Below, piece by piece: positions 462 through 54,815 of a DNA stretch of 61,161 nt. This DNA is from a virus. Where the stretch lies: IMG/VR virus record IMGVR_UViG_3300037264_007944, positions 1-61,161 of that record. One strand, written 5' to 3'. The position numbers and the translations under genes were made by a program. The notes under the pieces are model-generated. The model was given only the letters and a program-made list of their open reading frames with translations. It was not told where the DNA came from and did not search any database. Every line of letters begins with the position of its first letter. Position 1 is the stretch's first letter.

Positions 462-1076
462 ATGGGCCTGTTCACCGGATGGCGCAACCGTAAGAACAAA
501 AAAGAAGAGCCCAAGTCCTCCCACACGCTCCCCGACTTCGTCCGCGGCATCCAGCACGCCGTCAACACCGCCGCCCTCATGTACGAGCAGAGCGTCGAAG
601 GCTTCCTCGATCGCCACCTCAGGCAGGACGGCACCCCTGAGATCCAGGTCGTCAAGATCCCCAACTCCAAGTACGTCCTCCTCGCGCCAACGATGACGGT
701 CTCACGACCGCCGGACATGATCCTCGAAGAGATGGAAGTCAAGATGTGCATCCGGGTGGACAAGACAGAGGTGAAGGCTGGCCACCCCGCAGGAGACCCG
801 GAGGTCACCCGCTCCAGCTTCCAGGTGTCCCTGGCGTCCGGCAAGTCGAGCGAGAAGAGCTCGAGCGACATCGACATCGTGATGAAGTTCAAGCGCGGCG
901 ACGCTCCAGAAGGCGTGTCCCGCATCATGGAGGCGTTCGTCAACTCGATCGTCCCGGTGGATCCGCCGGTCAATCCGATCCCCGCCTTCGAGCCCGACGC
1001 CAACCCGCCCACGGGCGAGACGACCACGATCCTGAAGCCCAAGGACGGAGAACAGCCGGCGTCTCCTGCCGTATAA
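462..1076 (+). CDS. DUF2589-like protein
   Basis: 204 aa. The order of features matches the DUF2589 family: an N-terminal helix near FVRGIQHAVNTA (residues 27-38), a central strand region with the LEEMEVKM stretch (about 88-95), and a C-terminal segment with KFKRGDAPEGVSRIMEA (about 143-159) before a Pro-rich tail. DUF2589 has no established function; members occur in bacteria and phages. The start is ATG directly after the previous stop. The TATAAT of the next gene's promoter overlaps its last codons and stop. Confidence 0.6.
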   Translation: MGLFTGWRNRKNKKEEPKSSHTLPDFVRGIQHAVNTAALMYEQSVEGFLDRHLRQDGTPEIQVVKIPNSKYVLLAPTMTVSRPPDMILEEMEVKMCIRVDKTEVKAGHPAGDPEVTRSSFQVSLASGKSSEKSSSDIDIVMKFKRGDAPEGVSRIMEAFVNSIVPVDPPVNPIPAFEPDANPPTGETTTILKPKDGEQPASPAV

Positions 1077-1077
1077 T
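1050..1077 (+). promoter_or_regulatory. Phage promoter, GAACAGC-N15-TATAAT
   Basis: GAACAGC at 1050-1056, exactly 15 bases, then a perfect TATAAT at 1072-1077. Only six bases separate the -10 from the GTG start of the helicase at 1084, so the transcript should start at or next to the start codon. It is one of a family of promoters with identical spacing found throughout the window. Confidence 0.7.
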
Positions 1078-1083
1078 CCACGG

Positions 1084-2571
1084 GTGAGCAAAGCCGTCTT
1101 TCTGGAGAAGCTCGCCGCCATCTCCAAGAGCATCACCCTCCAAGCCCACCAGGAAGAGGCGGCGAAGAAATCCAGGTCAGGCGGATCCGGCATCCTGCTC
1201 AACTGGGGCCTTGGCTCAGGGAAGACCATCGGCGCGCTGAATATCTCCGAGGGCCGCGGAGGGAACACCCTGGTCGTGGTACCCGCGTCCCTGCGCGAGA
1301 ACTTCAGGGGCCAGATCCAGCAGGCCGTCACCAAGGACAGGCGCGGGACCTACAACATCGTCAGCTACGAGGCGTTCAAGAAGGACCCCGAGGGCATCAT
1401 CGCCAGGACGAAGCCGTCCACACTCATCGTCGACGAGGTGCACCGCCTCAGGAACGTCGCTCCGCGGGAGCCGTTCGATAGAGTTCGAAGCCAGATCCCC
1501 TACATGATCGGGCTCACGGGAAGCCTCGTGAACAACAGGCCCGAAGAAGTCGTCCCGCTCGTCAACCTCGTGGCAGGAAAGAAGGTCTACAACTCAGAGG
1601 ACGAGTTCGTCAGGGCGCACATCCAGCAGACGAAAGTCTTCCCTGGCGTGATCCCGTGGATGCGCGGTGCGAAGTCCGGCATCAAGGAGTCGATCAAGAA
1701 CAAGAAGGGCATCGCGGACCGCCTGGGCCCGCACGTCCACAGGTTCACCGGAAGCAAGGAGTACCTCAAGAGCGTCCCCAAAGTCGAGGAGGCCGTGGAG
1801 ACGGTCGAGCTCACCGACGAGCAGGAAAAGCTCTACTCCATGCTCGAGAACAAGAACCCGATCCTGGCTCAGAAGATCCGGCAGAACCTGCCTCCGAGCA
1901 AGCGCGACCTGACCAACATGAACTCGTTCCTGACGGCCGCCAGGCAGATCGCCAACACGCCGTCCGCCTACGTACAGTCCGGCTCGACGGCGTCCCCGAA
2001 GCGCGACCAGATCGTGCGGTCTATCGTGAGCAAGCTAAACCGGGACGAGAACTACAAGGCGATCGTCTACAGCAACTTCCTGGAGAGCGGGGTGAGCCCG
2101 GTCGTGGACCAGCTGGCCAGGTCAAAAGTCCCAGCCGCGGCGTTCACAGGGGAGCTCAACGACGCCCAGCGCAAGGCCCTGGTGGAGAGGTTCAACAGGG
2201 GGGAGCTCAAGGTGCTTGGGCTCTCCCCTGCTGGTGGGGAAGGACTGGACCTCAAGGGCGTGAAAGCGGTCCACCTCATGGAGGAGCACTGGAACCCGGA
2301 GCGCGCCCGCCAAGCGGTTGGGCGCGGCGCCAGGTTCATGAGCCACGAGCACCTCCCCGAGGAGGAGCGCAACGTCAACGTGACCAGGCACCTCGCCGTC
2401 CACGAGCCGACCTTCATGAACCGGGTGTTCGGCACGAAGAAGAAGATGTCCGTTGACGAGTGGATCGACCAGCGTCGCAGGGAGAAGCTGGAGCTCAACA
2501 AGGACCTGATGACCGCAATCCCGAAGTCCGCCGCGGACATGGGTGTACAGCCGGCCTGGAAGACGCTTTAA
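1084..2571 (+). CDS. SNF2-type superfamily 2 helicase/ATPase
   Basis: 495 aa. Walker A is GLGSGKT at residues 42-48, the Walker B/DEAD-like box is DEVH at 117-120, and motif III-like GLTGS is near 143. The C-terminal RecA-like domain has SPAGGEGLDL (motif V) and QAVGRGAR (motif VI, arginine finger), near residues 380-415. This is the compact SNF2/DEAD-box architecture used by phages as a DNA translocase or helicase in replication, repair or transcription. The start is GTG, probably leaderless. The active-site motifs are complete. The exact role cannot be read from context because neighbouring replication genes are missing. Confidence 0.88.
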   Translation: MSKAVFLEKLAAISKSITLQAHQEEAAKKSRSGGSGILLNWGLGSGKTIGALNISEGRGGNTLVVVPASLRENFRGQIQQAVTKDRRGTYNIVSYEAFKKDPEGIIARTKPSTLIVDEVHRLRNVAPREPFDRVRSQIPYMIGLTGSLVNNRPEEVVPLVNLVAGKKVYNSEDEFVRAHIQQTKVFPGVIPWMRGAKSGIKESIKNKKGIADRLGPHVHRFTGSKEYLKSVPKVEEAVETVELTDEQEKLYSMLENKNPILAQKIRQNLPPSKRDLTNMNSFLTAARQIANTPSAYVQSGSTASPKRDQIVRSIVSKLNRDENYKAIVYSNFLESGVSPVVDQLARSKVPAAAFTGELNDAQRKALVERFNRGELKVLGLSPAGGEGLDLKGVKAVHLMEEHWNPERARQAVGRGARFMSHEHLPEEERNVNVTRHLAVHEPTFMNRVFGTKKKMSVDEWIDQRRREKLELNKDLMTAIPKSAADMGVQPAWKTL

Positions 2572-2572
2572 T
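2545..2572 (+). promoter_or_regulatory. Possible weak promoter, GTACAGC-N15-TTTAAT
   Basis: This variant has the same geometry as the GAACRRC promoters: GTACAGC at 2545-2551, 15 bases, TTTAAT at 2567-2572, and six bases to the ATG at 2579. The -35 and -10 each deviate from consensus, and the site lies in the end of the helicase gene, so this is a tentative call. Confidence 0.35.
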
Positions 2573-2578
2573 ATACCC

Positions 2579-3181
2579 ATGCCGGATGAGCCGATGAACC
2601 TCCCTGGCGAAGGGCCGCTGGACCCAAAGCCAGAGCGCAACACAACGATAGTTGTGAAGGATCCGACGAAGCAGAGCTTCTGGCGCTTCCGAAACATCGC
2701 GCTCCTGGTGCTGACCGCTGTGCTTCCTGCCACCACGGGCTGGATCTACAACAAGTCCGAGCAGAGCGTCACCAACTACTTCAACAAGCAGAAATCCCAG
2801 GACGAGCGGATTCGGATCCTCGAGGAAGACACCCGCGAGCGGCTGAAGGAACTCGAGAACGATCACGCCAACAACAAAGCAATCTGGGACGCGATCGCCG
2901 AGGAGCGGACCAAACAGACCGAGCAGGAGATCGAGCTCCGGGTGCTGCAGCGCATCGTGGACCACGAGTTCAGGCGGTCCATCATGGCGTCGCGTCCGAA
3001 GCCTGAGAAGGAACCTAGTACCACGCCGGGGGAAACCCCGGCGGAACTTTTCCCGCCGCTTCCGGTCCCGCCGCAGCCGCTTCCGGTCCCGAAGCCGGCG
3101 CCGAGGATCGACCCAGACAGGTACCGTCTCGAGCAGGAGTCGAAGTTCCCGAAGCCTGCACCGAATCAGCAGAAGAAATGA
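2579..3181 (+). CDS. Membrane-anchored coiled-coil protein with Pro-rich tail
   Basis: 200 aa. A short N-terminal segment is followed by one membrane helix (about 37-54, IALLVLTAVLPATTGW), a charged probable coiled coil (about 60-125, rich in E, R, K) and a Pro-rich C-terminal third with repeated PLPVP. I choose ATG 2579 because an upstream in-frame start at 2543 lies inside the helicase gene. It overlaps the next gene by ATGA. The topology (one N-terminal membrane helix, a coiled coil outside) is what inner-membrane spanins look like, but no lysis genes are nearby, so the function stays open. Confidence 0.7.
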   Translation: MPDEPMNLPGEGPLDPKPERNTTIVVKDPTKQSFWRFRNIALLVLTAVLPATTGWIYNKSEQSVTNYFNKQKSQDERIRILEEDTRERLKELENDHANNKAIWDAIAEERTKQTEQEIELRVLQRIVDHEFRRSIMASRPKPEKEPSTTPGETPAELFPPLPVPPQPLPVPKPAPRIDPDRYRLEQESKFPKPAPNQQKK

Positions 3182-4405: not shown

Positions 4406-5471
4406 TTTCGTCGTCGTCGGGGCCGGGATGTTCGGCGCGTCGTTCGCAAGGATGGCGGCCGACAAGGGCAAGAAGGTCCTTGTGCTGGACGCCAAGCCGC
4501 ACACGGGCGGGATGTGCCACACCGAGATGGTTGACGGGATCATCCACCACAAGTACGGGCCGCACGTCTTCCACACCAATAGCCAGGAGATCTGGGACTT
4601 CGTGAACCGCTTCGTCGAGTGGCGCCAGTTCACGGTGAGGACGAAGGCCTTCCACCAGGGCAGGATGTACCCGCTCCCGTTCGCGATGCCAATGTTCCAC
4701 ATGCTGTGGGGCGTCGTGAGGCCGGCGGACGCGATCGCCCGCCTCGAGAAGGCCAAGGTCAAGATCGAGAACCCGAGGAACATGAAGGAGTGGGCTCTCG
4801 CCAACCTCGGCTACGAGATCTACGATAAGTTCATCCACGATTACACGGTGAAGCAGTGGGGCGTGGAGCCCGAGGATATCCCGGCGTCGACCCTCCGCAG
4901 GCTCCCGGTCCGCATGACGTACGACGACAACTACTTCACCGACCGATGGCAGGCGGTCCCGATCGGCGGCTATGCACCGATGTTCGACAAGATGCTCGAC
5001 GGGATCGAGGTGAAGCTGGGCACGGACTACTTCTCAGACCGTGACGGATTTGACCGGCTTGGCCAGGTGATCTACACCGGCAGGGTCGACCGCTTCTTCG
5101 ACTACGCCCTCGGAGAGCTAGATTTCCGGACCTGCCGGTTCGACACGAAGTCCATGACCGGGGACTATCAGGGGAACCCCGTCGTCCACTACGTCGAGCG
5201 GGACTACCCGTTCACGCGGGTGATCGAGCACAAGCACTTCAGCAACCCCGCAGCCAAGAACACGATTGTGACCTGGGAGTACCCCGGAGCAGCCGGTCGT
5301 GAACTGGAGCCGTTCTACCCGGTCAACAACGAGAAGAACGACGCCTTGTACGCTCGGTACTGCGCCCTCGAACACAAGGCCGTTTTCGCCGGAAGGGTTG
5401 GCAGCTACCGGTACTTCGACATGTGCGAGGTGATCGCTCAGGCAAAGCAGCTTGTGGGGTGTCTTTCGTGA
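4395..5471 (+). CDS. glf: UDP-galactopyranose mutase
   Basis: 358 aa, close to the normal length for the family. The N-terminal FAD-binding GAGMFG is at residues 9-14, followed by KYGPHVFHT (about 53-61), KQWG (about 153), the substrate-binding region with PVRMTYDDNYF, RDYPFTRVIEHKHF, and the C-terminal FAD-contacting GRVGSYRYFDM. The enzyme converts UDP-galactopyranose to UDP-galactofuranose in the cytoplasm, supplying donor for galactofuranosyl transfer. All motifs are intact. It lies between glycosyltransferase genes, which implies galactofuranose is added to a virion, host or DNA acceptor. Confidence 0.95.
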   Translation: MRYDFVVVGAGMFGASFARMAADKGKKVLVLDAKPHTGGMCHTEMVDGIIHHKYGPHVFHTNSQEIWDFVNRFVEWRQFTVRTKAFHQGRMYPLPFAMPMFHMLWGVVRPADAIARLEKAKVKIENPRNMKEWALANLGYEIYDKFIHDYTVKQWGVEPEDIPASTLRRLPVRMTYDDNYFTDRWQAVPIGGYAPMFDKMLDGIEVKLGTDYFSDRDGFDRLGQVIYTGRVDRFFDYALGELDFRTCRFDTKSMTGDYQGNPVVHYVERDYPFTRVIEHKHFSNPAAKNTIVTWEYPGAAGRELEPFYPVNNEKNDALYARYCALEHKAVFAGRVGSYRYFDMCEVIAQAKQLVGCLS

Positions 5472-11732: not shown

Positions 11733-11905
11733 GCAGTGAGGTTGGGCGACAGATAGAGAGGCCATATGGATAGCTGGCCTCGAAATTCTGTTTCCCCCTC
11801 TCTCCAGGGCCAGGCCGCCTTTACAGGGTAGAACCTCGAAGCGGTGGCCTGGCTCCTTTAATCATCACGGGGTCGGTCGCCGTCGCGGCCGACCCCTTTC
11901 TTTTT
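11733..11905 (+). ncRNA. Candidate small RNA between an operator-promoter and a terminator
   Basis: The 250 bases between the operator and the next gene hold no convincing + strand protein gene; the only small frame is 21 codons from ATG 11765. TTGCTC-17-TACATT would start transcription near 11733, and a strong rho-independent terminator ends at 11905. The stretch contains an internal hairpin (GAGGCCA pairing with TGGCCTC around 11759-11783). A roughly 170-base structured RNA is inferred, not shown. Confidence 0.35.
11869..11905 (+). terminator. Rho-independent terminator
   Basis: GGGGTCGG (11869-11876) pairs with CCGACCCC (11889-11896), followed by TTTCTTTTT. No + strand gene ends close upstream, so it would end the candidate small RNA and insulate the next promoter. 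Confidence 0.75.
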
Positions 11906-11908
11906 GGC

Positions 11909-11937
11909 TTGACGTCGTAGCTACGTTGCACTACATT
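11909..11937 (+). promoter_or_regulatory. Sigma70-like promoter with palindromic spacer
   Basis: TTGACG (11909-11914), 17 bases, TACATT (11932-11937), followed by AGGAGAG and ATG at 11961. The spacer contains the palindrome CGTAGCTACG (11916-11925), and CTACGTAG lies at 11942-11949 just past the expected start point, so a dimeric regulator probably binds here. It drives the operon with the XRE regulator. Confidence 0.65.
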
Positions 11938-12699: not shown

Positions 12700-12972
12700 A
12701 TGCCAAGCCCAGGTACAGAGTTCGGCCGTGAAGTGAAGAATCTCAGGATCCGCGAAGGCCTGACGACCGTCGTCCTGGCCAGAAAGACCGGCACGCACAA
12801 GGGCTACATCTCCGGCATCGAGAACGCCAAGGTGAATCCGCCGTCGAAGAAGATCCTCGTGAAGATGGCGAAAGCCCTCGGGGTGGAACTCAAGTGGCTC
12901 ATGAAGCTGTCCGTCGTGTCGAAGGCCCCCATCGAGATCCGGGCCGAGGTCGAACGGAAGCTGATCGGGTAA
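12700..12972 (+). CDS. XRE-family transcriptional regulator
   Basis: 90 aa. An HTH_3 domain covers residues 8-65: GREVKNLRIREGLT, VLARKTGTHKGYISGIENAKVNPPSKKILVKMAKALGV with the usual helix-turn-helix spacing. It is preceded by AGGAGGAAG. Dimeric XRE proteins bind palindromes; the palindromes in the promoter at 11909 of its own operon are the obvious targets, but this is inference. Confidence 0.88.
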   Translation: MPSPGTEFGREVKNLRIREGLTTVVLARKTGTHKGYISGIENAKVNPPSKKILVKMAKALGVELKWLMKLSVVSKAPIEIRAEVERKLIG

Positions 12973-15759: not shown

Positions 15760-15787
15760 GAACGACTCGATCAAGGCAAGGTATACT
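15760..15787 (+). promoter_or_regulatory. Phage promoter, GAACGAC-N15-TATACT
   Basis: GAACGAC (15760-15766), 15 bases, TATACT (15782-15787). The GTG of the next gene lies seven bases after the -10, so the transcript is predicted to be leaderless. It opens the fibre gene block. Confidence 0.8.
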
Positions 15788-16945: not shown

Positions 16946-16973
16946 GAACGACCGGGCCTCTGGACCGTATACT
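16946..16973 (+). promoter_or_regulatory. Phage promoter, GAACGAC-N15-TATACT
   Basis: GAACGAC (16946-16952), 15 bases, TATACT (16968-16973). Unlike most of its family it is followed by a leader of about 50 bases with GCAGGAG before the ATG at 17028. Confidence 0.8.
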
Positions 16974-22041: not shown

Positions 22042-23417
22042 TGCCGCACAACCATGCCTGGGTGCCTCTGAAGAAAGGCTACGAGAAGTGCCTCGTCTGC
22101 GCCTGTGGGGCCATGCACGTTCGCGGTATCCAGGTTGGCGATAATACGATCACGCTGTCCCCTTCCGGGGTCGGCGACGTGGCCCGCTGGTCGGCAACCA
22201 AAGAAGCAGTGGCTGCCGGTGACCTCGGAATGAGCGTCACCAGCGGAAGACCAAACGTGATCGTTTCCGGCGTGGTCAGACCCCTTATCTACACGACCGA
22301 AGTGGTCGGAGGGACCTTCGGCATCGGGATGTTTGGGGACGGATCTGACGGAAACTCGACCCTTGTCGCCAACACGGTGTTTGCCGCCAACGACAATGTC
22401 CAGCTCTACGACAACTTCACCAGCGGCGGCTTCAACTTGTCGGCAAACTCGGCGGACTTGTCTCTGGTCATGTATGTCAAGAGCACGGCCAGCATCAGCG
22501 CGGGAACCAACATTACCGCTACCACCTTCGGAGCTGTCGGCACGGGCGGAGCCGGTGGCGGCCCAGCCGGTGGCGGCGCCAATGGAGGCACCTCTTGCGG
22601 CACCGTGGCGATCTACGCCAACACGATCACCGGAAGCGGGACCGTCAGTGCGAACGGCACTGCGGGAAGCGTTGGGGGCATCGGCTCCGCTACCGCCACA
22701 GCAAATACCGGCGGTGTCGGCGGTGCGGCTGGATCGACCAATAGCAGGCTTTTCGGTATTGCCTTCGCCGCGGCAGCCGCCGCCGGGGTAGGAGCAGGCG
22801 CTTCAGCCGGTGGCATACCGGGCATTGGAGGTACGGCAGGAACGGTCAACGCACTTGCCCCCGACGTGTTTCAGGACTGCAATAGATTCATGATCGGCTG
22901 GGGAGGCACGGACGGCTTTACTGTTGGGACGGACTCGAACAGCAGGTGGGCGGCAGGCGTTTCCGGAGGAGGCGGAGGTGGCGGCTCCCAAAATACCGCG
23001 GGCGGAGGGGGCGGCGGCGGAGGGGCCGGTGGCGGTGCCTTCATAAGCAACGGCGGAGTCGGCGGGGGAGGCGGAGCCGCACCTGGCGTATCCGGAACCG
23101 GATCAGGTGGAGGCGGAGGTGGAGGAACGGCAGGAATCGCCATCGTGATCTCCAACAACACGTCCGCCATTTCCGTGCAAGCTAATGGCGGGGCTGGCGG
23201 GGCTGGCGGGGCTGCTGCGGCGGTCAATGTTACAGGCGGAGGCGGAGGAGGCGGTGCTTCCGGCGGTCTTTCTCTTGTGGCGGGACAGAGCGGCCACAGC
23301 GCGGCGTCCAGCGCGGCGGCAGGCGCTCTAGGGGCCGGTGGAACGGGCACAGGTCCTTCCGGCACGTCCGGGGCTGCCGGTGGCGCAGGGATCGTGTTTA
23401 ACTCGTCGTGGAGCTAA
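22038..23417 (+). CDS. Glycine-rich adhesin-like protein 2 of 3
   Basis: 459 aa. Its N-terminus (NHAWVPLKKGYEKCLVCACG) has the same His-x-x-Trp and Cys-Gly arrangement as its neighbours, then VGDNTITLSPSGVGDVARWSAT. The C-terminal half contains several runs of glycine (GGGGGGS, GGGGGGGAGGGAF). It differs from copies 1 and 3 mainly between the glycine runs, where receptor specificity would be expected to lie. Confidence 0.75.
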   Translation: MMPHNHAWVPLKKGYEKCLVCACGAMHVRGIQVGDNTITLSPSGVGDVARWSATKEAVAAGDLGMSVTSGRPNVIVSGVVRPLIYTTEVVGGTFGIGMFGDGSDGNSTLVANTVFAANDNVQLYDNFTSGGFNLSANSADLSLVMYVKSTASISAGTNITATTFGAVGTGGAGGGPAGGGANGGTSCGTVAIYANTITGSGTVSANGTAGSVGGIGSATATANTGGVGGAAGSTNSRLFGIAFAAAAAAGVGAGASAGGIPGIGGTAGTVNALAPDVFQDCNRFMIGWGGTDGFTVGTDSNSRWAAGVSGGGGGGGSQNTAGGGGGGGGAGGGAFISNGGVGGGGGAAPGVSGTGSGGGGGGGTAGIAIVISNNTSAISVQANGGAGGAGGAAAAVNVTGGGGGGGASGGLSLVAGQSGHSAASSAAAGALGAGGTGTGPSGTSGAAGGAGIVFNSSWS

Positions 23418-26665: not shown

Positions 26666-26693
26666 GAACGACCCACGATCACCGTGCTATGAT
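26666..26693 (+). promoter_or_regulatory. Phage promoter, GAACGAC-N15-TATGAT
   Basis: GAACGAC (26666-26672), 15 bases, TATGAT (26688-26693). The ATG at 26689 is part of the -10 and cannot be the translation start of a message made here; the ATG at 26701 is seven bases past the -10, giving a leaderless mRNA. Confidence 0.78.
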
Positions 26694-30536: not shown

Positions 30537-30900
30537 GGGGAAGCGGACCCTCGTCAAGCGAGGGATTCCAGCTGTCGCCGGCGCCGGGAAGATCGTCGTC
30601 GTCAAGCGCGGCGAGGACCTCCACTCCGCCCTCGAGACGCGCTACATTCTCATGCAGAAGGACGTCGAGACGGTCGAATTCTTCTGGAATACCCTCATGA
30701 AGCCGGAGAAGGCCTACTCCGAGACGAAGGAGTGGCCGGAACACCTCGCGCTCGTGAACAAGTGGGAACTCCACGAAGGCGTGAAGACGATCTACGAGTA
30801 CCGTGCGAAGATGCGCAAGCTGAAGGTGTGGATCGACCACTTCCAGGCCGGTCGCGATTATGAGCTGACCGTGGACGAAGTTGTGGAGATCCAGTCGTGA
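30484..30900 (+). CDS. Unknown protein with basic N-terminus
   Basis: 138 aa. The N-terminal 30 residues are very basic (GKQASATRKTPAATSHKGKR). The rest is helical with aromatic residues (VEFFWNTLMKPEKAYSETKEWPEHL; YEYRAKMRKLKVWIDHF). If translation starts later than 30484 the long overlap with the previous gene would shrink. Stop overlaps next GTG. Confidence 0.6.
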   Translation: MGKQASATRKTPAATSHKGKRTLVKRGIPAVAGAGKIVVVKRGEDLHSALETRYILMQKDVETVEFFWNTLMKPEKAYSETKEWPEHLALVNKWELHEGVKTIYEYRAKMRKLKVWIDHFQAGRDYELTVDEVVEIQS

Positions 30901-31667
30901 GCGCAGGTGAGAAAGTCGCAAAGCTCCCAGCGGGGTTCCCGGCCGGTCGCCTGCGCCTGAGCAAGACCCTGTCGAGGGGGATCAGCGACCGTGCGACGGG
31001 TATGAACAGAACCCTTCCTCCGATGGTCTCTCCTCTCGGCGGCCAGGCTCCAGGCCGCACGCCGACGTCTACGCAGCAGGGGGACGTCAGGACCATCCAG
31101 GCCAGGGGCAGGGGGACCCTCAGCGAGACCGTCGCCGCGAAGGCGAACCAGAAGGTCGCCCCTCAGGACAGGTCCCAGGTGACGCCGCATGGCGAGGCCA
31201 TGCCGCACAACGAGGGTGATGGCGCGAGCCGCGGCTCGTCGCCGTTCCAGGACGTCAGGGCGCAGAAGGAGGCCCGCGCCGTCCTTCGGGAGTCCCTCGG
31301 CAAATTGTCGATGGCCATGCGCCCGGCCGACATGGTGAGCTTCATGTCCCACGCGTTCGACAAACGTCACATCACGCGGTTCAGAACAGATCCGGTGAAG
31401 CTACTGGAGCCGGCACTGAAGCAGATGAAAGAAGTCCGCCCGCTCCCGGAGATCGCCGGGCACGGCTTTGTCGCCCACCTGCCTGGCGAGCACAAGATCA
31501 TGGGCAAGATCGACTCGCTCGGATGGGTCAAGCCGCGTACGTTCTACGGCCCCGGGCAGGCCCACGACAAGAGGCGCGGAGACGTCGACATCACCAAGGC
31601 CATCTCCGACATCAAGAACAAGATGAAGGGCGACGAGGGCGGTCAGCTTCTCGGGGAACAGCTATAG
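30897..31667 (+). CDS. Unknown low-complexity protein
   Basis: 256 aa from GTG 30897. The N-terminal half is disordered-looking and rich in Gly, Pro, Gln, Arg; the C-terminal half has ESLGKLSMAMRPADMVSFMSHAFDKRHI and GDVDITKAISDIKNKMKGD. No family recognised. The promoter at 31656 lies in its last codons. Confidence 0.62.
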   Translation: MSAGEKVAKLPAGFPAGRLRLSKTLSRGISDRATGMNRTLPPMVSPLGGQAPGRTPTSTQQGDVRTIQARGRGTLSETVAAKANQKVAPQDRSQVTPHGEAMPHNEGDGASRGSSPFQDVRAQKEARAVLRESLGKLSMAMRPADMVSFMSHAFDKRHITRFRTDPVKLLEPALKQMKEVRPLPEIAGHGFVAHLPGEHKIMGKIDSLGWVKPRTFYGPGQAHDKRRGDVDITKAISDIKNKMKGDEGGQLLGEQL

Positions 31668-31683
31668 CTTTGTCGGGTATAGT
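31656..31683 (+). promoter_or_regulatory. Phage promoter, GAACAGC-N15-TATAGT
   Basis: GAACAGC (31656-31662) as at the helicase promoter, 15 bases, TATAGT (31678-31683). The GTG at 31692 lies eight bases after the -10. Confidence 0.6.
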
Positions 31684-34516: not shown

Positions 34517-34756
34517 GTGCAAGGCGACTTTCCTCTTCCAAACAAGCTGTCCGACTTCACGAAGATGATCGGGCCACTTAGAAAAAAGCACAAGATCCCG
34601 CAGGAGAAGCTCGCCAGGAAGCTTGGGATCGCGAGGTCATCTCTCGCCTGCATCGAAAAAGGTTACCGGGAGCCTTCAGCTCAGGTGCTATGGAGACTTC
34701 TTGGTGTGTTCAACAACGGGCACCTGGACGAATTAAGCAGGAAAGGGAAACGCTGA
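34517..34756 (+). CDS. Cro/CI-type helix-turn-helix regulator
   Basis: 79 aa from GTG 34517. HTH_3 domain over about residues 14-66: MIGPLRKKHKIPQEKLARKLGIARSSLACIEKGYREPS, VLWRLLGVF. No C-terminal dimerisation or cleavage domain, so it is Cro-sized. The palindrome at 34480 in its own promoter, repeated at 11697, 14657 and 47091, is the likely binding site. It probably sets early/late or lysis/lysogeny choice; no integrase is in this window. Confidence 0.88.
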   Translation: MQGDFPLPNKLSDFTKMIGPLRKKHKIPQEKLARKLGIARSSLACIEKGYREPSAQVLWRLLGVFNNGHLDELSRKGKR

Positions 34757-35603: not shown

Positions 35604-35631
35604 GAACGACCGGCTCCATTCGCTGTAGACT
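35604..35631 (+). promoter_or_regulatory. Phage promoter, GAACGAC-N15-TAGACT
   Basis: GAACGAC (35604-35610), 15 bases, TAGACT (35626-35631), six bases to the ATG at 35638. The message is predicted to be leaderless and no Shine-Dalgarno is present. Confidence 0.75.
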
Positions 35632-41158: not shown

Positions 41159-41186
41159 GAACGACCGCGCCCAGTTAGAGTATGAT
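41159..41186 (+). promoter_or_regulatory. Phage promoter, GAACGAC-N15-TATGAT
   Basis: GAACGAC (41159-41165), 15 bases, TATGAT (41181-41186). The GTG at 41194 follows after seven bases. It opens the head gene block. Confidence 0.8.
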
Positions 41187-41454: not shown

Positions 41455-42078
41455 ATGAAAGTCGAAATCCTGAAGTCAGACGAGGGCGTTCAGATCCACC
41501 TCGAGAACGAGGATGGGTCGAAGACGGTCTGGCTATGCGACACCGAACAGGCGGCGATCTTCAAGCTCGCCAACCTGCTGTTCTCCGCCCAGGAGGACCC
41601 GAAGCAGGCCAAGCGGTCCATCCTGATCGGCGACTTCGACGCCCCGGAGCCAAAGGAGAAGCCTCTCGCCGAGCGCGCCGAGAAAATTCGCGAGGATCTC
41701 AAGAAGTCCGGCCTCGCCCAGAAGGGCGGCGACATGGCCGCCAAGGACCTCGAGAAGTTCAAGGACATCCTCAAGAAGATGCAGGAGGCGCAGGAGATCT
41801 CGGCTCCGTTCACGGTCCCGAGCATCTACGACACCCCTGGCATCAAGATCTACCCGGCATCCATCCCGCAGCCGATCCCGATGATGCCGTACATCGGCGA
41901 TCTTCCGTACAGCGTAAGCGGCACCGGCCAGCCGTGGTGGGTTCAAAGCCAAAACATCCAGGTGACCAACTTCAGCGGGGCAGCCCTCGTCGAGACTCCA
42001 GCGGCCGACGTGCTGACGGCGAACGGCTCCGCCGTGAAGATGTTCAACGTATCCATGAGCCTTCAGAGCAACGGATGA
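41455..42078 (+). CDS. Head-region protein, unknown
   Basis: 207 aa with AGGAGAC before the ATG. N-terminal strand part, central charged helix (LEKFKDILKKMQEAQEI) and Pro/Ile-rich C-terminal domain (YPASIPQPIPMMPYIG). It immediately precedes the protease-like gene (ATGA overlap), the place where scaffold or portal-associated genes usually are. No family recognised. Confidence 0.62.
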   Translation: MKVEILKSDEGVQIHLENEDGSKTVWLCDTEQAAIFKLANLLFSAQEDPKQAKRSILIGDFDAPEPKEKPLAERAEKIREDLKKSGLAQKGGDMAAKDLEKFKDILKKMQEAQEISAPFTVPSIYDTPGIKIYPASIPQPIPMMPYIGDLPYSVSGTGQPWWVQSQNIQVTNFSGAALVETPAADVLTANGSAVKMFNVSMSLQSNG

Positions 42079-43934
42079 TCGAAAAGCGCAGCCACGTCCA
42101 GGCCTACGACCCCGTGCACGGGCAGAACGTGTTCGTGCTCGGCGGCGAGCTCGAGAAGACCGCCTCGATCGTGAAGATCGCGGAGGTTTCCGATGTCATC
42201 GCCCAGGCGATCGAGGGCCTGAAAGCCGAACCCGGACACCGCTACGTCCTTGTGAACGGCATCGGAGCAGGCGAGTTCTGGGGCTCGAACAGGAACGGCG
42301 ACTACTTCCCCGAGGGCGGCCTCAAGCACGCCGGGGAGGACTACGGGTTCCGGACGTTCCTTGCCGGCCACAACTTCCTCCATCACGAGAACAAGGACCC
42401 GCTCAAGGCCGTCGGCACCGTGAAGTGCGCCCACTACAACACGAAGATGCACCGCGTCGAGCTGCTTCTGGACACCGACCTGGCGAAGCTCGCAAAAGCC
42501 GATCCGGAGATCTACGAGAAGGTCGCCAACGGAGATCCCGTCGACGTGTCGATGGGCTCGAAGTGCGACTTCGACGTGTGCTCGATCTGCTCGCACCGCG
42601 CGGCGACGCGCCAGGAATACTGCGCTCACCTGAAGACCGCCATGAACCAGGTGATGGACGGCGGGCAGAAGGCGTATGCCTACACGCCGCACCCGCGCTT
42701 CTTCGACATCAGCTACGTCACGAAGGGCGCCGACGTCACGGCGAAGGCTCTCCACTACCTGGACAAGCAGGCCAGCCTGGCCGACAACGTCGTCTCCCGC
42801 CTGAAAGCCGCGGCATGCCCGGCCCCGGAGATGCACGAGAAGGTCGCCTCGCAGGCGACGTACTCGCTTCCGTCCTTCAAGGAGGATGACCGCTGCGTGG
42901 TTGCCCTCCTCGAGGCCGTTGAACCAACGATCCCGTTCGAGGCCCTCGCGGGCATGGCGAAGATCGGCTTCAACGAAACGCTCTCCACCTGCACGAACCT
43001 GGGCGTGATTCTGAAGCCGGAGGAGTATCAGGCCGTCGCGCTTGTCGCGCTCGGCCATGAGAAAGAGGCGCGTGCCGCGTACGACGCCGGCGCCTCCATC
43101 GATCCATCCACCGCCGGATCCTGGTTCGACCCGTCTCTCAGGCCGATCAAGGCGCAGATATCCAGCGACAACATGAGCGAGAAGGTCGCCGAGATCATCT
43201 GCGACTTCGTGCCGGAGAGGTCCATCTTCGAGCCGTTCTTCTCGTCCCGCATCGAGAGCATTTCTCACGTTCCATCCGCGACGCTCTCGAAGATCGCGTC
43301 AGCGAACGCGATCATGAAAGAAGCGTCCTCGTTCATGACGGCGGAGCTCGCCGCGGCGCTGGCGCTCGGGTACCTCATCTATAGAGGTGGGACTCCAGGG
43401 GCCGCGACGGAAACTTTGAGAGAGGCCCTCTCGAAACCCGGCATGTCGAAAAAGGTTCTGACGGTCCTCCTTCCTCTCATGGCCGCAGGGAGCGTCGTCG
43501 ACAAGATGCTCAACTACCAGCCGCAGACGTCACTCAAGACGGCCGGGTGGGGCGCCGGATGGGTCGCGCCTGTCGCCGGCACGTACCTGTACTCCGCGTA
43601 CGCGAAGAGAAAAGCTGAGCGTGGAGAGCCGATCAGCGGTCTCGAGCACATGGCGATCGACTACCCTCTCCCTCTGGCCCTTGGCGCAGTTGCCGGCATC
43701 AAGGGCCTCACTCGCAAAATCAGGGGAACGACAGGCAAAACGGGTGGTATCATTTCGGACATGAACAAGAGCGGCTCGCAGGACCTGGCGCTCGCGCTGG
43801 GCTCCGGCTTCTACCGCCCTCGCGCGTCTGGGTTGGCCGGTTACGCCGCCGACTCTGTGATTGCCGTCGGACTCGCGAAGCTTTTCGGATCGCTGAAAAA
43901 TCTCGTTACCGGCGACAAGTCCAAGAACGAATAA
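42075..43934 (+). CDS. Prohead protease-like protein with long C-terminal extension
   Basis: 619 aa from ATG 42075. Residues 60-225 resemble prohead maturation proteases of the S78/assemblin-like type: NRNGDYFPE, HNFLHHENKDPLKAVGTV (His103/104), HRVELLLDTD, and VDVSMGSK (Ser159). A Cys group follows (Cys164, 169, 172, 183), likely a metal knuckle. LEKTAS at 27-31 could be a self-processing site. The C-terminal 350 residues are helical with two hydrophobic stretches. It precedes scaffold-like genes and the capsid gene. A frame from 41535 reads through the upstream gene and is rejected. Confidence 0.6.
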   Translation: MIEKRSHVQAYDPVHGQNVFVLGGELEKTASIVKIAEVSDVIAQAIEGLKAEPGHRYVLVNGIGAGEFWGSNRNGDYFPEGGLKHAGEDYGFRTFLAGHNFLHHENKDPLKAVGTVKCAHYNTKMHRVELLLDTDLAKLAKADPEIYEKVANGDPVDVSMGSKCDFDVCSICSHRAATRQEYCAHLKTAMNQVMDGGQKAYAYTPHPRFFDISYVTKGADVTAKALHYLDKQASLADNVVSRLKAAACPAPEMHEKVASQATYSLPSFKEDDRCVVALLEAVEPTIPFEALAGMAKIGFNETLSTCTNLGVILKPEEYQAVALVALGHEKEARAAYDAGASIDPSTAGSWFDPSLRPIKAQISSDNMSEKVAEIICDFVPERSIFEPFFSSRIESISHVPSATLSKIASANAIMKEASSFMTAELAAALALGYLIYRGGTPGAATETLREALSKPGMSKKVLTVLLPLMAAGSVVDKMLNYQPQTSLKTAGWGAGWVAPVAGTYLYSAYAKRKAERGEPISGLEHMAIDYPLPLALGAVAGIKGLTRKIRGTTGKTGGIISDMNKSGSQDLALALGSGFYRPRASGLAGYAADSVIAVGLAKLFGSLKNLVTGDKSKNE

Positions 43935-47209: not shown

Positions 47210-47986
47210 GTGCCTTCGATCAATGTGACGCCGGAAGAAGTCAGCGCGGCTTCCTTGGAAGCGGCGCGAAAGAAGGGAACAGGCAGTTTTTTCCTTGATA
47301 TACTTGGGGCGCCGTTACTGAAGCGCCCAGCTCTTTCAAATGCGGTCGCAAAATACAGGAAAGGCCTGACGGACGCGGACGTTCGCGCCGGAGAAGCCGC
47401 CGGGAAAATCCCGGGGCTCGGACGGATCTTCGAAGAGGAGATGCGGACGCCGGTGAAGACTGTGGGAAACCTGGAAGTGTCCCACGTCGCGAAGGTGAAG
47501 CGCCTGACGGCCCCTCTTGTGAAGGCCCAGAAGTTCATGGTCCCGCTCTTCGCGTACGAAGGGCTGAGGAGAGTGTTCTCTGGGGGCGACGGCGAGGCGC
47601 AGGCGCAAGGTAAGGGAGCGAGTGACACGATGATGACACGCGACGAGCAGGCGGTCCTGGTGAAGGCGGCTGCCGTCATCGAGCAGCTCGGCAAGGAACG
47701 CGCGATGCTGATCGATCAGCTCGCGGTCGCCATGCACGAGAAGCAGGCTCACACGATCGCGGCGGACATGGCCGACAAGGGCATGGTCTCCCGCGAGGAC
47801 GTCGAGAAGAAGGCCGCCGAGCTTGCGCTCGAGCCAGACCTCGGCATCGTCAAGAAAGCAGTCGACCTTTCACAGCGCGGCTTCGAGATGGGACGTATCG
47901 AGAAAACGGCTCAGCTCGAGGATGGCTCCGAGGGGGACATGGATCCGCTCACGGAGATGTTGGTCAACCACATCAGAGGACGATAG
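47210..47986 (+). CDS. Head-region protein, unknown
   Basis: 258 aa from GTG 47210. Basic helical N-terminal half; the C-terminal half is a long helix (EQAVLVKAAAVIEQLGKER) ending MGRIEKTAQLEDG with the E-K-T-A motif. The first 150 bases are less G+C-rich than neighbours. Position right before capsid-type genes suggests a head role. Confidence 0.62.
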   Translation: MPSINVTPEEVSAASLEAARKKGTGSFFLDILGAPLLKRPALSNAVAKYRKGLTDADVRAGEAAGKIPGLGRIFEEEMRTPVKTVGNLEVSHVAKVKRLTAPLVKAQKFMVPLFAYEGLRRVFSGGDGEAQAQGKGASDTMMTRDEQAVLVKAAAVIEQLGKERAMLIDQLAVAMHEKQAHTIAADMADKGMVSREDVEKKAAELALEPDLGIVKKAVDLSQRGFEMGRIEKTAQLEDGSEGDMDPLTEMLVNHIRGR

Positions 47987-48586: not shown

Positions 48587-48601
48587 TAGTCTTGTGCAAA
48601 T

Positions 48602-49613: not shown

Positions 49614-49646
49614 GCGTCAGGCTTCAGGGTATACTGGCTCTCAGCG

Positions 49647-49679
49647 GGGCCGGGGGTGGCAACGCCCCCGGCCCTTTTT
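49647..49679 (+). terminator. Strong rho-independent terminator after the capsid gene
   Basis: GGGCCGGGGG (49647-49656) pairs perfectly with CCCCCGGCCC (49665-49674) and TTTTT follows. It separates the capsid message from the neck and tail genes. Confidence 0.9.
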
Positions 49680-49708
49680 GTTAGGCTGAGAACTTTCAGG
49701 AGGCGACC

Positions 49709-49894: not shown

Positions 49895-49897
49895 GAC

Positions 49898-50431: not shown

Positions 50432-50441
50432 GGGGAACAGC

Positions 50442-50744: not shown

Positions 50745-50747
50745 TCC

Positions 50748-51650
50748 GTGATCGAGATCGACCGCGTCGTAGTCCGACCGCTGACGGTCACGTCGGCCGA
50801 GGTCACGTGGGTCCTCAAGCCGACGGATGAGCCGCTGTCGTCCTCCAGGTTCCACGTCCTCATGAGCGAGTCCGAGCAAGGCCCTTTCGAGGACGTCTCC
50901 GGACCGCTCACCGACACGCAGACCTTCATCTGCCAGGTCAACCTCAAGGCGAAGCACAACACGCTTTGCTGGAGGGTCCGCCTGGACGACGTCATCACCG
51001 GGATCTCCACGACGTATCCGAGCGGGACGCCGACCGAGGCGTTCAAGTTCCACCCGCTGTTCGACGTCGTCACCCTTCCGAACGACTACGGCCAGAACTA
51101 CATCGCGATCGAGATCGCCCGTCTGAACCACCTTCTCCTGCGCCGCTATACGGGTCGCGTGACGGCCTATCTGCCGATCAGGACCCAGGGTAAACGCTGC
51201 CCGCAGTGCTGGGACGAGAAGAAGCGTCGCGGGAATTCCTCCTCGTGCGTGGAGTGCTACAGCACGACGTTCCAGGGAGGCTTCTACGCGCCAATCCCGG
51301 TATTCGTGGACTTCAACCCGTCGCCGAACGTGATCCAGATCTCGAACTTCGGGAAGCTCGAGGAGAACCAGACGGCCGCCTTCATGGGCAACTACCCGCT
51401 GGTGAAACCCAACGACATGCTGGTGGAGCAGACAAACCGTCGCTGGCGCGTGGTTCAGGTGAACGCTATCTCCGAAAAAAGGTACATTGTACAGCAACAC
51501 CTGCAGGTTCAGGAGATCGAGCGGTCGGACGCCGAGTACCTCCTGCCCGTAGACCTGAACCTGAAGGCGCCCTCGGAGGATTTCGTCGGGTTCTTCCCGA
51601 AGAACTACTCCCCGAAACTCGTTCCGACTGAAGGGAGCGGCCTGCTGTGA
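50748..51650 (+). CDS. Neck-region structural protein with zinc knuckle
   Basis: 300 aa from GTG 50748. The N-terminal 105 residues are a beta domain; residues about 145-180 hold CPQCWDEKKRRGNSSSCVEC, two CxxC pairs that probably bind zinc; the C-terminal part contains FVDFNPSPNVIQISNFGKLEE and RRWRVVQVNAIS. It lies between connector and tail genes. Similar zinc-bearing neck proteins are seen in other large myoviruses; assignment here rests on order. Confidence 0.6.
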   Translation: MIEIDRVVVRPLTVTSAEVTWVLKPTDEPLSSSRFHVLMSESEQGPFEDVSGPLTDTQTFICQVNLKAKHNTLCWRVRLDDVITGISTTYPSGTPTEAFKFHPLFDVVTLPNDYGQNYIAIEIARLNHLLLRRYTGRVTAYLPIRTQGKRCPQCWDEKKRRGNSSSCVECYSTTFQGGFYAPIPVFVDFNPSPNVIQISNFGKLEENQTAAFMGNYPLVKPNDMLVEQTNRRWRVVQVNAISEKRYIVQQHLQVQEIERSDAEYLLPVDLNLKAPSEDFVGFFPKNYSPKLVPTEGSGLL

Positions 51651-52537
51651 GCGCACTCGAAGAGCTGAATGCGATCCTGACGAAGCAGTCTGCCTCGTTT
51701 GTCCGCCCCAAGGGCAACGTCTGGACGCAGACCAAGCATGTCGCCGAGGTCGCGAAGGCTCACGGGGTCAGCGCGGAGGCCATCGCCAAGGCTCCCGGCA
51801 GGTCTGCCGAAGAAGTCGCCGGCCGACTCGGGGCGGAACGCGCGAAGGGCCTGACGGCGGAACGCGCTCAGCAGCTCGGCGGATCGCCAAGCATGGCCAG
51901 GCTTCACCCAGACGTCCGTGGTGTCGTCAGGGGCGTCGCGCACCCACAGGCCCTTCCCGGGAAAGACCCAGGCTCCGTGGCTCAGTCCGCCAAGTTGAGG
52001 GCCGAGGGGGCGCGCCAGGCGCTCAGGGAGAGCGTCAGCTTGAGCGCCAGGACCGCTCCAACGATCACGGCGACCGAGAAGGTCTCGCCGCAGCTCGCCG
52101 CCGCGCGTGGTCGGACGACCCCGGAGCAGAGGTCCGTGGTCATCCCAGAGAAGAAGTACCCGTCCAAGTTCGAAGCGAAGCACAGGGCCGTCGAGGCGAA
52201 ATCGGAAGCCGAGGCTGTCGTGCGCGGCAAGGAAGTCTCTCAGCAGCTCGGTCACGAGAGGTCGAAGGACATCGCCACCAACGTCGACACGCTCAGGGGC
52301 CAGCAGACCCTGGAGATGGCCACCACCAAGCCGGCGGAGAAGCCGTACTGGGTCCCTCCTTCGAAGCATGAAGTCCGCACCGAACTCGCGGCAAAGTACG
52401 ACAAGAAGGTCGCCCCCAGCAGGTCTCCGGCGGAGGTCCGAGAGGTCCACAATGTTCGCGAGGCGCTCCGCACGCACCTCCGCGGCAAGGAGATCCTGGC
52501 AAAGAGGACCGCTGGTATGGGAGGGGCGACGGCGTGA
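51647..52537 (+). CDS. Arg/Ala-rich unknown protein
   Basis: 296 aa from GTG 51647. Rich in Ala, Arg, Glu, Lys, mostly predicted helix and disorder (AEEVAGRLGAERAKGLTAER). It begins ALEELNAILTKQSAS with a K-Q-S variant of the K-x-A motif. Stop overlaps next GTG. Possibly internal or nucleic-acid-associated. Confidence 0.6.
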   Translation: MSALEELNAILTKQSASFVRPKGNVWTQTKHVAEVAKAHGVSAEAIAKAPGRSAEEVAGRLGAERAKGLTAERAQQLGGSPSMARLHPDVRGVVRGVAHPQALPGKDPGSVAQSAKLRAEGARQALRESVSLSARTAPTITATEKVSPQLAAARGRTTPEQRSVVIPEKKYPSKFEAKHRAVEAKSEAEAVVRGKEVSQQLGHERSKDIATNVDTLRGQQTLEMATTKPAEKPYWVPPSKHEVRTELAAKYDKKVAPSRSPAEVREVHNVREALRTHLRGKEILAKRTAGMGGATA

Positions 52538-53370
52538 TCCAGAAGACAGCTTCCGCAAGATTCTACGAGATGGTCGACGCCGAGCTCGAAAAGCTCAGCG
52601 CCCCGCGCGGGGCCGGCGCCCTCGCCGCCCACGAAGGCGCGGTTGCCGCTGCGGCCGCCAGGAGCGCGGCGCGGAGCGCGCCGAAGCCGACTCTCGAGGG
52701 CGTCCGCCGTGAAGGCGCGATGAGATCTTTTCGCGCCGCCAAGGAGCACGTGAGGGCCGTGACCGGGGCTCCGGAGCTCAGCCCGGCCGAGAGGCTCGCC
52801 AGGGGGAACGAGAGGGTCAGCGCGAAGGCGCACGCGAAGCTCGTCGCCAGGGCGGAAGCCGCGAAGAACGCCCCGAAGCCGCTCGCCGAGCGTGCTTCCG
52901 GAGCCGCTCTGGACGTCAGCCTGAAGGCGCACAAGGCCATGGGCGACGCGGCCACCGCCGCGTCCGGGGCGGCGTCGAAGGCGGTCGCGAAGGGCAAGGA
53001 CCTCGGCAGGTCGGCCGGCGCGGCGCTCGGCACCGCAGGCCGCGCGGCCGGGGAAGCCTTCGGCGACGTCAGCCTGAAGGCGCACAAGGCCATGGGCGAC
53101 GTCAGGCTGGCCATCGGCGGGAAGATCGAGAAGATCAAGAGATCCAGAGCGGAGAGCGCCGCCGCAACCTCCGCTGGGGTACGGGCCCAGGCCGAGGCAG
53201 GCGCAAGGGCAGCGCAGGTCAGGCCTCAAAAGCCACCCAAGGCCACGCGTGAAGCCGCGCCAGAGACATTGAGGGCGACCGCCGGAACGACACCCTGGGG
53301 GACGATCGCGGCGGTTGGCGGCGGCAGCCTGGTGGCTGCCAACGCGCTGAGCAGGCGCGACGATGATTAA
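52534..53370 (+). CDS. Ala-rich protein with internal duplication
   Basis: 278 aa from GTG 52534, starting IQKTASARFYEM. A 37-base direct repeat (52912-52948 and 53065-53101) encodes DVSLKAHKAMGD twice, 51 codons apart. Very rich in Ala, Lys, Arg and Gly. The C-terminal stretch WGTIAAVGGGSLVAANAL may be membrane-associated. Family unknown. Confidence 0.62.
   Translation: MIQKTASARFYEMVDAELEKLSAPRGAGALAAHEGAVAAAAARSAARSAPKPTLEGVRREGAMRSFRAAKEHVRAVTGAPELSPAERLARGNERVSAKAHAKLVARAEAAKNAPKPLAERASGAALDVSLKAHKAMGDAATAASGAASKAVAKGKDLGRSAGAALGTAGRAAGEAFGDVSLKAHKAMGDVRLAIGGKIEKIKRSRAESAAATSAGVRAQAEAGARAAQVRPQKPPKATREAAPETLRATAGTTPWGTIAAVGGGSLVAANALSRRDDD
52912..53101 (+). repeat. 37-bp direct repeat within a gene
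   Basis: Two identical 37-base copies, 52912-52948 and 53065-53101, in the same frame and 153 bases apart, in the Ala-rich gene at 52534. Recent in-frame duplication or conversion. Confidence 0.9.
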
Positions 53371-53380
53371 GGAGAAGACC

Positions 53381-53677
53381 GTGAACATGAAAGATCTCGT
53401 GAAGCAGGCGGCCGAGCTGAGCATCCCCGAAGACCAGAAGGTCGGCGCCCTCGCCGCATCCGCGATGGAAGCTGGCTTCTCCGACGTCATCCTCAAGGAG
53501 GCGGCGAAGCGCGGCTTCCAGATCGAGAAGACGGCGGCGGTCTCGAAGAAGATCGCCGGACGAGAGGTCACCTTCAGCAAGATGTCCTTCGAGGACCTCA
53601 TGTCCCACCTGACCTCGCAGTTCAGCGTGCCCGCCAAGCACGACGTCGACGGCGGGGTCGAGGTCCGCCCTACCTAA
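53381..53677 (+). CDS. Small helical protein with EKTA motif
   Basis: 98 aa if it starts at GTG 53381, six bases after AAGGAG; ATG 53363 (overlapping the gene before) and ATG 53387 are alternatives. KDLVKQAAELS and FQIEKTAAVSKKI carry two forms of the K-x-A motif. The C-terminal half has VTFSKMSFEDLMSHLTSQF. Confidence 0.62.
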   Translation: MNMKDLVKQAAELSIPEDQKVGALAASAMEAGFSDVILKEAAKRGFQIEKTAAVSKKIAGREVTFSKMSFEDLMSHLTSQFSVPAKHDVDGGVEVRPT

Positions 53678-53709
53678 AGACGGCGCTCACCGGCAGCATC
53701 AAGTCGCTG

Positions 53710-53820
53710 ATGAAGCCGCCAGCAGGGAACAGCGCCGTCTCTAATCTCATGGGCGTTTCAGCCATGTTCAAGGTCAGGCCGAAATCCGCGACGCCGACGT
53801 TCATCTCGAGGGCCACATGA
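53710..53820 (+). CDS. Possible 36-aa protein
   Basis: The 139 bases between two genes hold a frame from ATG 53710 (KPPAGNSAVSNLMGV, RPKSATPTF) whose TGA overlaps the next ATG by ATGA, the coupling typical of real genes here. No good ribosome binding site. The frame is open upstream past 53677, so it could also be reached by a -1 shift from the preceding gene, but no slippery site is visible. Confidence 0.4.
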   Translation: MKPPAGNSAVSNLMGVSAMFKVRPKSATPTFISRAT

Positions 53821-54161
53821 GCCTGAGATTCCGCATGGACCCGCGCGAAGACATGTCGAACAGGACGGACTTCACGTACGACCTCATGCAGTCCTTGTCC
53901 AAGAAGGCCCAGGAGGCCGTTGACTCCGCGGACGAGCTCGTTGAGTTGAAGAGATCGGCCAGGGTCAACGTCAGGGTGCAAGGGACCCTGCATTCCATAT
54001 CCGTGGACATCACGATCTCGCCGCTCGGGGACGAGGAGCTTTCGCAGGAGCAGCTCACCTCCGCCAAGAGCGCCATAGCCGCCAAGGTCAACGCGACCAT
54101 CAAGTCGTCGATGGCCGACATGCTCCAGGAATCCATGACGAGCGCAAGGAAGAGGATGTAA
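53817..54161 (+). CDS. Small neck/tail-region protein
   Basis: 114 aa. N-terminal helix (FTYDLMQSLSKKAQEAVDSADELV), a beta hairpin (ARVNVRVQGTLHSISVDITISPLG), C-terminal helix (IAAKVNATIKSSMADMLQES). It overlaps the next ATG by one base. Placed before the tail terminator-like gene. No family named. Confidence 0.62.
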   Translation: MSLRFRMDPREDMSNRTDFTYDLMQSLSKKAQEAVDSADELVELKRSARVNVRVQGTLHSISVDITISPLGDEELSQEQLTSAKSAIAAKVNATIKSSMADMLQESMTSARKRM

Positions 54162-54781
54162 TGTCCGACGAACCGATCGTCATCGTCGACTCGTCCAGCA
54201 AGGACCCGATCGTCGACAACCTGATGACCGACGAGGTCAAGAATCACCTCCTGGAGTTCCTACGGTTCATCTTCTCGAACAGCGAGCGGTTCAAGTACAA
54301 CGACGACGAGCTGGCGTCGAAGATCTCCATCTCGGACGTCTTCCCGAAAAAAGAGGATTACGAGAAGAAGCCCGCCATCGTGGTCCGCCGCGAGAACCTC
54401 ATGACCACGAACCGCGGCATCGGGCACTTTGCCGGGTGGACGTACTCGAAGAATTTTGGGCGTCGCTTTACGGATCTCTTCCGGAGCCAGTGCGTGATCG
54501 AGTGCTATTCCAGGGAGGGGCTCGAGGCCGAGAAGCTGGGCAACATTGTCTTCCAGTCGTTCCTGTACTTCAGGAACAAGCTGCGCGAGGTCGGCCGCGT
54601 CCACGACATTCTGGTGGCGAACATCGGCCCGGAGATCCCGCAGAGGATTTCGAGCGAGATCACCCTGTCCATGGTCCCTGTCCAGCTCTCGTTCGAATTC
54701 ACGGAGTCCTGGGTCACCGAGGAGATCGGGAAGGACCTCTTCAACGGCCTCGAAGTGAGCATCCTGATCAAAGACCTATAA
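54161..54781 (+). CDS. Putative tail completion (terminator) protein
   Basis: 206 aa. A helical N-terminus followed by KPAIVVRRENLMTTNRG, FTDLFRSQCVIECYSREGLEAEKLGNIVFQSFLYF and VQLSFEFTESW. The arrangement (small alpha/beta protein with a long central helix after a Cys-strand) and position right before the sheath gene fit tail completion proteins. Assignment by order and style. Confidence 0.55.
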   Translation: MSDEPIVIVDSSSKDPIVDNLMTDEVKNHLLEFLRFIFSNSERFKYNDDELASKISISDVFPKKEDYEKKPAIVVRRENLMTTNRGIGHFAGWTYSKNFGRRFTDLFRSQCVIECYSREGLEAEKLGNIVFQSFLYFRNKLREVGRVHDILVANIGPEIPQRISSEITLSMVPVQLSFEFTESWVTEEIGKDLFNGLEVSILIKDL

Positions 54782-54787
54782 GAATGG

Positions 54788-54815
54788 GAACGACTGTCCG
54801 GACCGGTGGTATACT
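54788..54815 (+). promoter_or_regulatory. Phage promoter, GAACGAC-N15-TATACT
   Basis: GAACGAC (54788-54794), 15 bases, TATACT (54810-54815), then a leader of about 48 bases with AGGAAGG before the sheath ATG at 54864. It gives the tail genes their own start. Confidence 0.82.

Follow-up and report, generated by a model that had tools for sequence, protein, structure and literature searches.

Candidate two-box promoters with mostly leaderless predicted starts in a fragment of a large myophage genome

The window, by which we mean the whole stretch of DNA analysed here (61,161 bases of the viral contig IMGVR_UViG_3300037264_007944, 59–67% GC), is a fragment of a large myophage genome and contains a family of putative promoters in which an upstream box of consensus GGGAACGAC stands at a fixed distance from a TATAMT -10 element. 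Our own gene calling placed ~94 genes in the window, on the + strand nearly throughout, and their products include virion components (a major head protein, a tail sheath and tape measure-like proteins) as well as an SNF2-type helicase, a single-stranded DNA-binding protein (SSB), a UDP-galactopyranose mutase and glycosyltransferases. The closest cultured relatives by capsid and sheath were Salmonella phage Arash (180.8 kb) and Vibrio phages D69, D181 and D148 (~187 kb), with protein identities of roughly 23–36%, while five nearer uncultured contigs, hereafter G001–G005, shared 59–99% identity in capsid and sheath. No DNA similarity to the window was detected among known phages, a peptide scan for relatives of window genes 1084, 17028 and 42075 found none, and a search of bacterial genomes with the capsid, aimed at the host, gave a single distant match, a capsid relative with 31% identity in a metagenome-assembled genome.

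An initial annotation of this DNA had listed eight sites sharing a 7-base box, a spacer of exactly 15 bases and a -10 hexamer, and their coordinates and sequences all proved exact. Our analysis added two members, 43726 (GAACGAC/TATCAT) and 47277 (GAACAGG/TATACT), both located within genes. Together with a weaker site at 2545, proposed earlier as a ninth, the sites are as follows, each designated in the text by its first base.

1050–1077, + strand: predicted promoter site, GAACAGC-N15-TATAAT; GTG of the SNF2-type helicase gene (1084–2571) 6 nt past the -10; leaderless geometry.
2545–2572, + strand: weak, probable member, GTACAGC-N15-TTTAAT; ATG 2579 lies 6 nt past the -10, and this geometry is its sole support.
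15760–15787, + strand: predicted promoter site, GAACGAC-N15-TATACT; stop codon 12 nt before; GTG 15795 7 nt past the -10; leaderless.
16946–16973, + strand: predicted promoter site, GAACGAC-N15-TATACT; stop codon 6 nt before; leadered, 54 nt to ATG 17028, with a Shine-Dalgarno (SD)-like AGGAG.
26666–26693, + strand: predicted promoter site, GAACGAC-N15-TATGAT; stop codon 9 nt before; in-frame ATG 26701 7 nt past the -10; leaderless.
31656–31683, + strand: predicted promoter site, GAACAGC-N15-TATAGT; overlaps the 3' end of gene 30897–31667; GTG 31692 8 nt past the -10; leaderless.
35604–35631, + strand: predicted promoter site, GAACGAC-N15-TAGACT; stop codon 3 nt before; ATG 35638 6 nt past the -10; leaderless.
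41159–41186, + strand: predicted promoter site, GAACGAC-N15-TATGAT; stop codon 2 nt before; in-frame GTG 41194 7 nt past the -10; leaderless.
43726–43753, + strand: putative internal promoter, GAACGAC-N15-TATCAT; within gene 42075–43934; in-frame ATG 43761 7 nt past the -10.
47277–47304, + strand: putative internal promoter, GAACAGG-N15-TATACT; within gene 47210–47986, upstream of the major capsid gene (48678).
54788–54815, + strand: predicted promoter site, GAACGAC-N15-TATACT; intergenic, with the tail sheath gene (54864–57212) downstream.

Scanning both strands of the whole window for GAACRRC-N15-TAKRMT with at most one mismatch returned 10 matches, all on the + strand, a number far above that in shuffled sequence (mean 0.66, standard deviation 0.76, maximum 3; 0 of 100 shuffles reached 10). 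Seven forward and no reverse matches were obtained at zero mismatches, and a backwards control gave none. When the spacer was varied from 6 to 27 bases, a length of 15 yielded 10 sites on the + strand and 0 on the - strand, compared with 0–3 on the + strand for any other length; in the five related contigs pooled, the same spacer gave 13 on the + strand and 0 on the - strand, with 0–1 on the + strand for neighbouring lengths. The motif also emerged without prior knowledge, since GAAC-N18-TATA ranked first among all 4-mer dyads with gaps of 8–23 (7 observed versus 0.16 expected). Only nine TATAVT hexamers occur on the + strand of the 61 kb and none on the - strand, and in six of the nine cases GAAC stands 22 bases upstream. 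Every member has a G two bases ahead of GAAC, and the upstream box reads GGGAACGAC in consensus. Two boxes, a fixed spacing and a TATAAT-like -10 are together the pattern expected of sigma-dependent promoters of bacterial type.

Placement is directional, with all 10 sites on the coding strand. The initial annotation had put the family in gaps or gene ends before gene blocks, which holds for eight of the ten sites, at gene boundaries, but not for the added intragenic members 43726 and 47277. The site at 2545 fared unevenly too, its start-codon geometry fitting the family and its score falling within the background range. Weak matches at 51461 and in its homologues were rejected as coding coincidence in a conserved peptide, and a match at G001:5119 was rejected as a promoter, being a terminator hairpin with TATACT in its loop. 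This hairpin follows the capsid gene of G001 (5119–5165, locus L026), and in the window a strong terminator hairpin (49646–49675) lies immediately 3' of the major capsid gene.

A feature overlooked in the initial annotation is the position of the sites relative to stop and start codons. At six of the ten sites, a predicted gene has its start codon 6–8 nt past the -10, and both the weak site 2545 and the internal ATG 43761 fit the same geometry; in addition, 6/10 boxes follow a stop codon at a distance of 2–12 nt (P = 6e-9). Independently called starts fall at an offset of 34–36 from GAAC at 4/10 sites (P = 9e-8), a count that becomes 6/10 once in-frame starts passed over by the gene caller (26701 and 41194) are admitted; at site 26666, the caller's ATG 26689 falls within the -10 itself. 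With +1 expected ~7 nt past the -10, the predicted transcripts would therefore begin on the start codon, the arrangement that defines a leaderless promoter, and the mRNAs would be leaderless, so that leaderless translation may be the rule at most sites. Sites 16946 and 54788 precede leaders of ~50 nt with SD-like sequences. An SD-like 4-mer was found before 61 of 92 window starts, and the phage would therefore use both leadered and leaderless modes. Separately, CTGGCA-N18-TAGAAT followed after 8 nt by ATG 462 (424–462) is a possible leaderless promoter of sigma-70 type.

Comparison with the sister contigs pointed to conservation of the boxes. At 54788, before the sheath gene, GAAC, TATACT and their spacing are common to the window, G001, G002, G004 and G005, with the spacer sequence largely different in G001 and G004 despite the kept boxes. 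Around the homologue of 41159 (G004:2735) the DNA has diverged, yet the two boxes, their spacing and a GTG at an unchanged offset are all present there. At 47277, the boxes lie in coding sequence (KGTGSFFLDILGAP) and use ACA and ATA, which make up 5–6% of their codon families here; the probability of this pattern given the protein is ~8e-4, four contigs share ATA and GGAAC, and the boxes are retained in G001, G002 and G004. Site 43726 has a close homologue in G002 (2488) and a weaker one in G004 (5311); protein conservation alone could account for this (P ~0.006), which makes 43726 a less certain member.

The initial annotation had described the upstream box as unlike TTGACA, and sigma-70 consensus scans agreed, with no TTGACA-like -35 element 16–18 nt from the -10 at any of the ten sites. 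Sigma-70-type sites were no more numerous in the window than expected from background (5, 0 and 2 per 20 kb). Over-representation, the fixed 15-base spacing, complete strand bias, placement relative to stops and starts, and conservation all support promoters whose reader is not an ordinary sigma of TTGACA type. Elsewhere in the window, a strong intrinsic terminator (11869–11937; 12-bp stem, T-rich tail) is directly followed by TTGACG-N17-TACATT, a candidate host-type promoter before a block with helix-turn-helix (HTH) and SSB genes.

As possible readers, a phage sigma factor, an activator and an unusual host sigma had been proposed; the first of these gained direct support from sigma genes in G001 and in the cultured relatives, and the other two were kept as lesser rivals. 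G001 encodes a 244-aa protein of the sigma-70 family at 22318–23052 (L027:2318–3052), matching the Pfam domains Sigma70_r3 (7.6e-7, over the curated cut-off) and Sigma70_r4 (7e-4, below the cut-off), PHROG 351 'RNA polymerase sigma factor' (8e-14) and, over residues 33–239, RpoS (2e-9). A single-sequence structure prediction of this protein was unusable (pLDDT 46.5). Homology between G001 and the window's last gene stops at G001:15948, and the sigma gene lies ~6.4 kb farther on. Homologues occur in Arash (gp10, E = 1e-26) and D69. By alignment, region 4 is intact in the G001 protein, including a TRERVKK helix, and is degenerate, its normal form lost, in those of Arash and D69. The apparent + strand promoters of the latter two phages consist of a single TAAAATA box 32–58 nt before genes; in the analysed stretches of D69, this box occurs 18 times on the + strand and once on the - strand, many copies lying within genes. 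Two-box promoters would thus go with an intact region 4, and one-box promoters with a degenerate one, a consistent picture drawn from few phages and not a proof. The motif was not found in a second sigma-bearing contig (L040, 43% GC). On the minus strand of Arash gap regions, for example upstream of 137660 and 139441 (L034), CTTATACC/GGTATAAG elements stand beside TAAAATA, as if divergent early promoters overlapped the plus-strand ones.

The clade sigma also bears on the suggestion, made in the initial annotation from the GGAAC in the upstream box, of a link with extracytoplasmic function (ECF) sigma factors. GGAAC is indeed shared with ECF promoters; however, these have a -10 of CGTC/TCTAA type, whereas that of the window is the sigma-70-type TATAMT, and the clade sigma matches regions 3 and 4 of RpoS/RpoD type. 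An ECF promoter was rejected on these grounds, the -10 and a sigma with Sigma70_r3 that is not two-domain.

As for the core enzyme, Arash encodes a two-piece multisubunit RNA polymerase (RNAP), gp206, in which Rpb2 is fused to the N-terminal part of Rpb1, and gp216, a separate Rpb1 C-terminus with domain 5 (130093–134670 and 139441–141261; L030, L034), and D69 carries both pieces at 54–56% identity to Arash. Neither the window nor G001 gave a significant match to the Arash subunits. Arash gp217, the homologue of the window's helicase gene, directly follows the RNAP gene gp216, and it is therefore possible that an RNAP gene lies to the left of the window. Since the blocks downstream of the sites contain mostly virion genes, the regulon is probably expressed late, or in both the middle and late phases.

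Taken together, we favour, with moderate confidence, the explanation that the sites are promoters of one regulon of a large myophage, read by a phage-encoded factor of the sigma-70 family and with mostly leaderless starts. RNAP carrying this factor would bind GGGAACGAC as a -35-type box through sigma region 4, while region 2 would contact TATAMT as the -10, exactly 15 bases separating the 7-base box from it. With transcription beginning ~7 nt past the -10, the predicted first base would at most sites coincide with the initiating ATG or GTG of the block's opening gene, whose mRNA would then be translated without a leader. Ordinary leaders with SD-like sequences are predicted for gene 17028 and for the sheath operon. 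The window's phage would carry a sigma gene of the G001 type beyond the right end of the window. The sequences themselves show the motif with its statistics, spacing, strand, placement, start-codon geometry and conservation, and a sigma gene in G001; from these we infer promoter activity, reading by such a sigma, its presence in this phage, the timing and leaderless translation. A wider generalisation is tentative: the clade may combine its own multisubunit RNAP with a sigma-70-type factor, a two-box GGGAACGAC-N15-TATACT regulon and leaderless operons, its region-4-less relatives using one-box promoters.

Several points weigh against the favoured explanation. Domain searches found no sigma domains in the window's proteins, and the case for a sigma gene in the window's phage is made only by synteny with the sister contig. 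The link between sigma and motif is drawn from that one contig and from an indirect contrast with two distant phages. The G001 sigma gene sits among tail and baseplate genes, an odd position for a factor required before late transcription, and Arash has a second sigma, gp196, of which a clade homologue would have gone unseen. Furthermore, the intragenic sites 43726 and 47277 may in part be coding coincidence, and the gene starts of the window are the output of our own gene caller.

A host RNAP with an unusual host sigma might instead read the sites in a host rich in leaderless mRNAs, the phage sigma then serving other genes. The -10 is an ordinary TATAMT, and in Deinococcus-Thermus leaderless genes with a -10 directly before the open reading frame (ORF) are common (PMC12340547); leaderless mRNAs are also known in mycobacteria. 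We nevertheless regard this reading as rather unlikely, given the absence of TTGACA-like -35 elements and the background level of sigma-70-type sites reported above. Across all viral contigs, moreover, the exact GGGAACGAC-N15-TATACT occurs in nine stretches only, two of them in sister contigs and the other seven in contigs without a second copy, a rarity unlike that of a widely used host element.

Less probable still is a mechanism like that of MotA in T4, with a phage activator on GGGAACGAC standing in for the -35 contact and bringing host sigma-70 to the -10. Such a protein would suit a box of ~9 bases placed closely before a good -10, and the window has genes for two small HTH proteins (12700–12972 and 34517–34756); however, both are of HTH_3 Cro/C1 type, usually binders of palindromes, and GGGAACGAC is non-palindromic. 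Box and spacing show the rigidity of sigma-dependent promoters, and the clade has a known sigma. Finally, a repeated element other than a promoter, or chance with coding constraint, would accommodate the two sites in coding sequence and the look-alikes at 51461 and G001:5119, but appears very improbable in view of the shuffle, spacing, strand and dyad tests, the positions at gene boundaries and on start codons, and the boxes kept at 54788 while the spacer diverged.

Two further observations concern the proteins of the window. The motif K-x-A-[A/S] was found within the first 45 residues of 16/78 proteins, versus 3/78 in residues 46–90, in genes across 26689–53677 (e.g. 42075, 44473, 45670, 50442 and 53363; examples are EKTAS, DKQAA, LKAAS and RKEAAS), and may serve virion proteins as a common N-terminal signal for processing or packaging. 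Between 20653 and 24795, three successive genes (20653, 22038 and 23419; ~460 aa each) have N-terminal H-x-W...CxCG and VGxNTIT in common and look like tandem paralogues.

Phage-encoded sigma factors with promoters of their own are familiar from T4 (gp55) and SPO1 (gp28 and gp33/34). Promoters of phage-encoded sigma factors are likewise described for phiEco32 and 7-11, and for 7-11 there is precedent for finding them bioinformatically (PMC4331800). All four systems share with the window a conserved low-copy motif on one strand before gene blocks and a sigma-70-family protein in the phage group. The motif of 7-11 is of a compact TGTGATGTTATA type, however, whereas in the window 15 bases separate the two boxes, the GGGAACGAC box is new and the predicted starts are mostly leaderless. 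AR9 and phiKZ, with multisubunit RNAPs, resemble the present case as large phages, the clade's cultured relatives also carrying beta/beta'-type subunits. The late motif of AR9 is AACA-N6-TA/G with 5' untranslated regions of 26–491 nt (PMC5312081), unlike the sigma-70-type -10 with an upstream box and the predicted 0-nt leaders of the window. The leaderless promoters of Deinococcus-Thermus (PMC12340547) similarly place a -10 hexamer a few nt before the ORF, but they are host promoters with a TANNNT -10 and an optional -35, whereas the GGGAACGAC box of the window is fixed and always there. No description of this box or of a mostly leaderless phage regulon was found in the open-access literature.

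For a group of large phages that is uncultured, these results supply a promoter code open to testing, in which a phage sigma is paired with a predicted -35/-10 code. The intact region 4 with two-box promoters, set against the degenerate region 4 with one-box promoters, offers a natural contrast for the co-evolution of sigma region 4 and the -35 box. If the favoured explanation is true, a mostly leaderless phage regulon would clearly exemplify how the choice of transcription start determines the mode of translation, and would suggest a host proficient in translating leaderless mRNAs.

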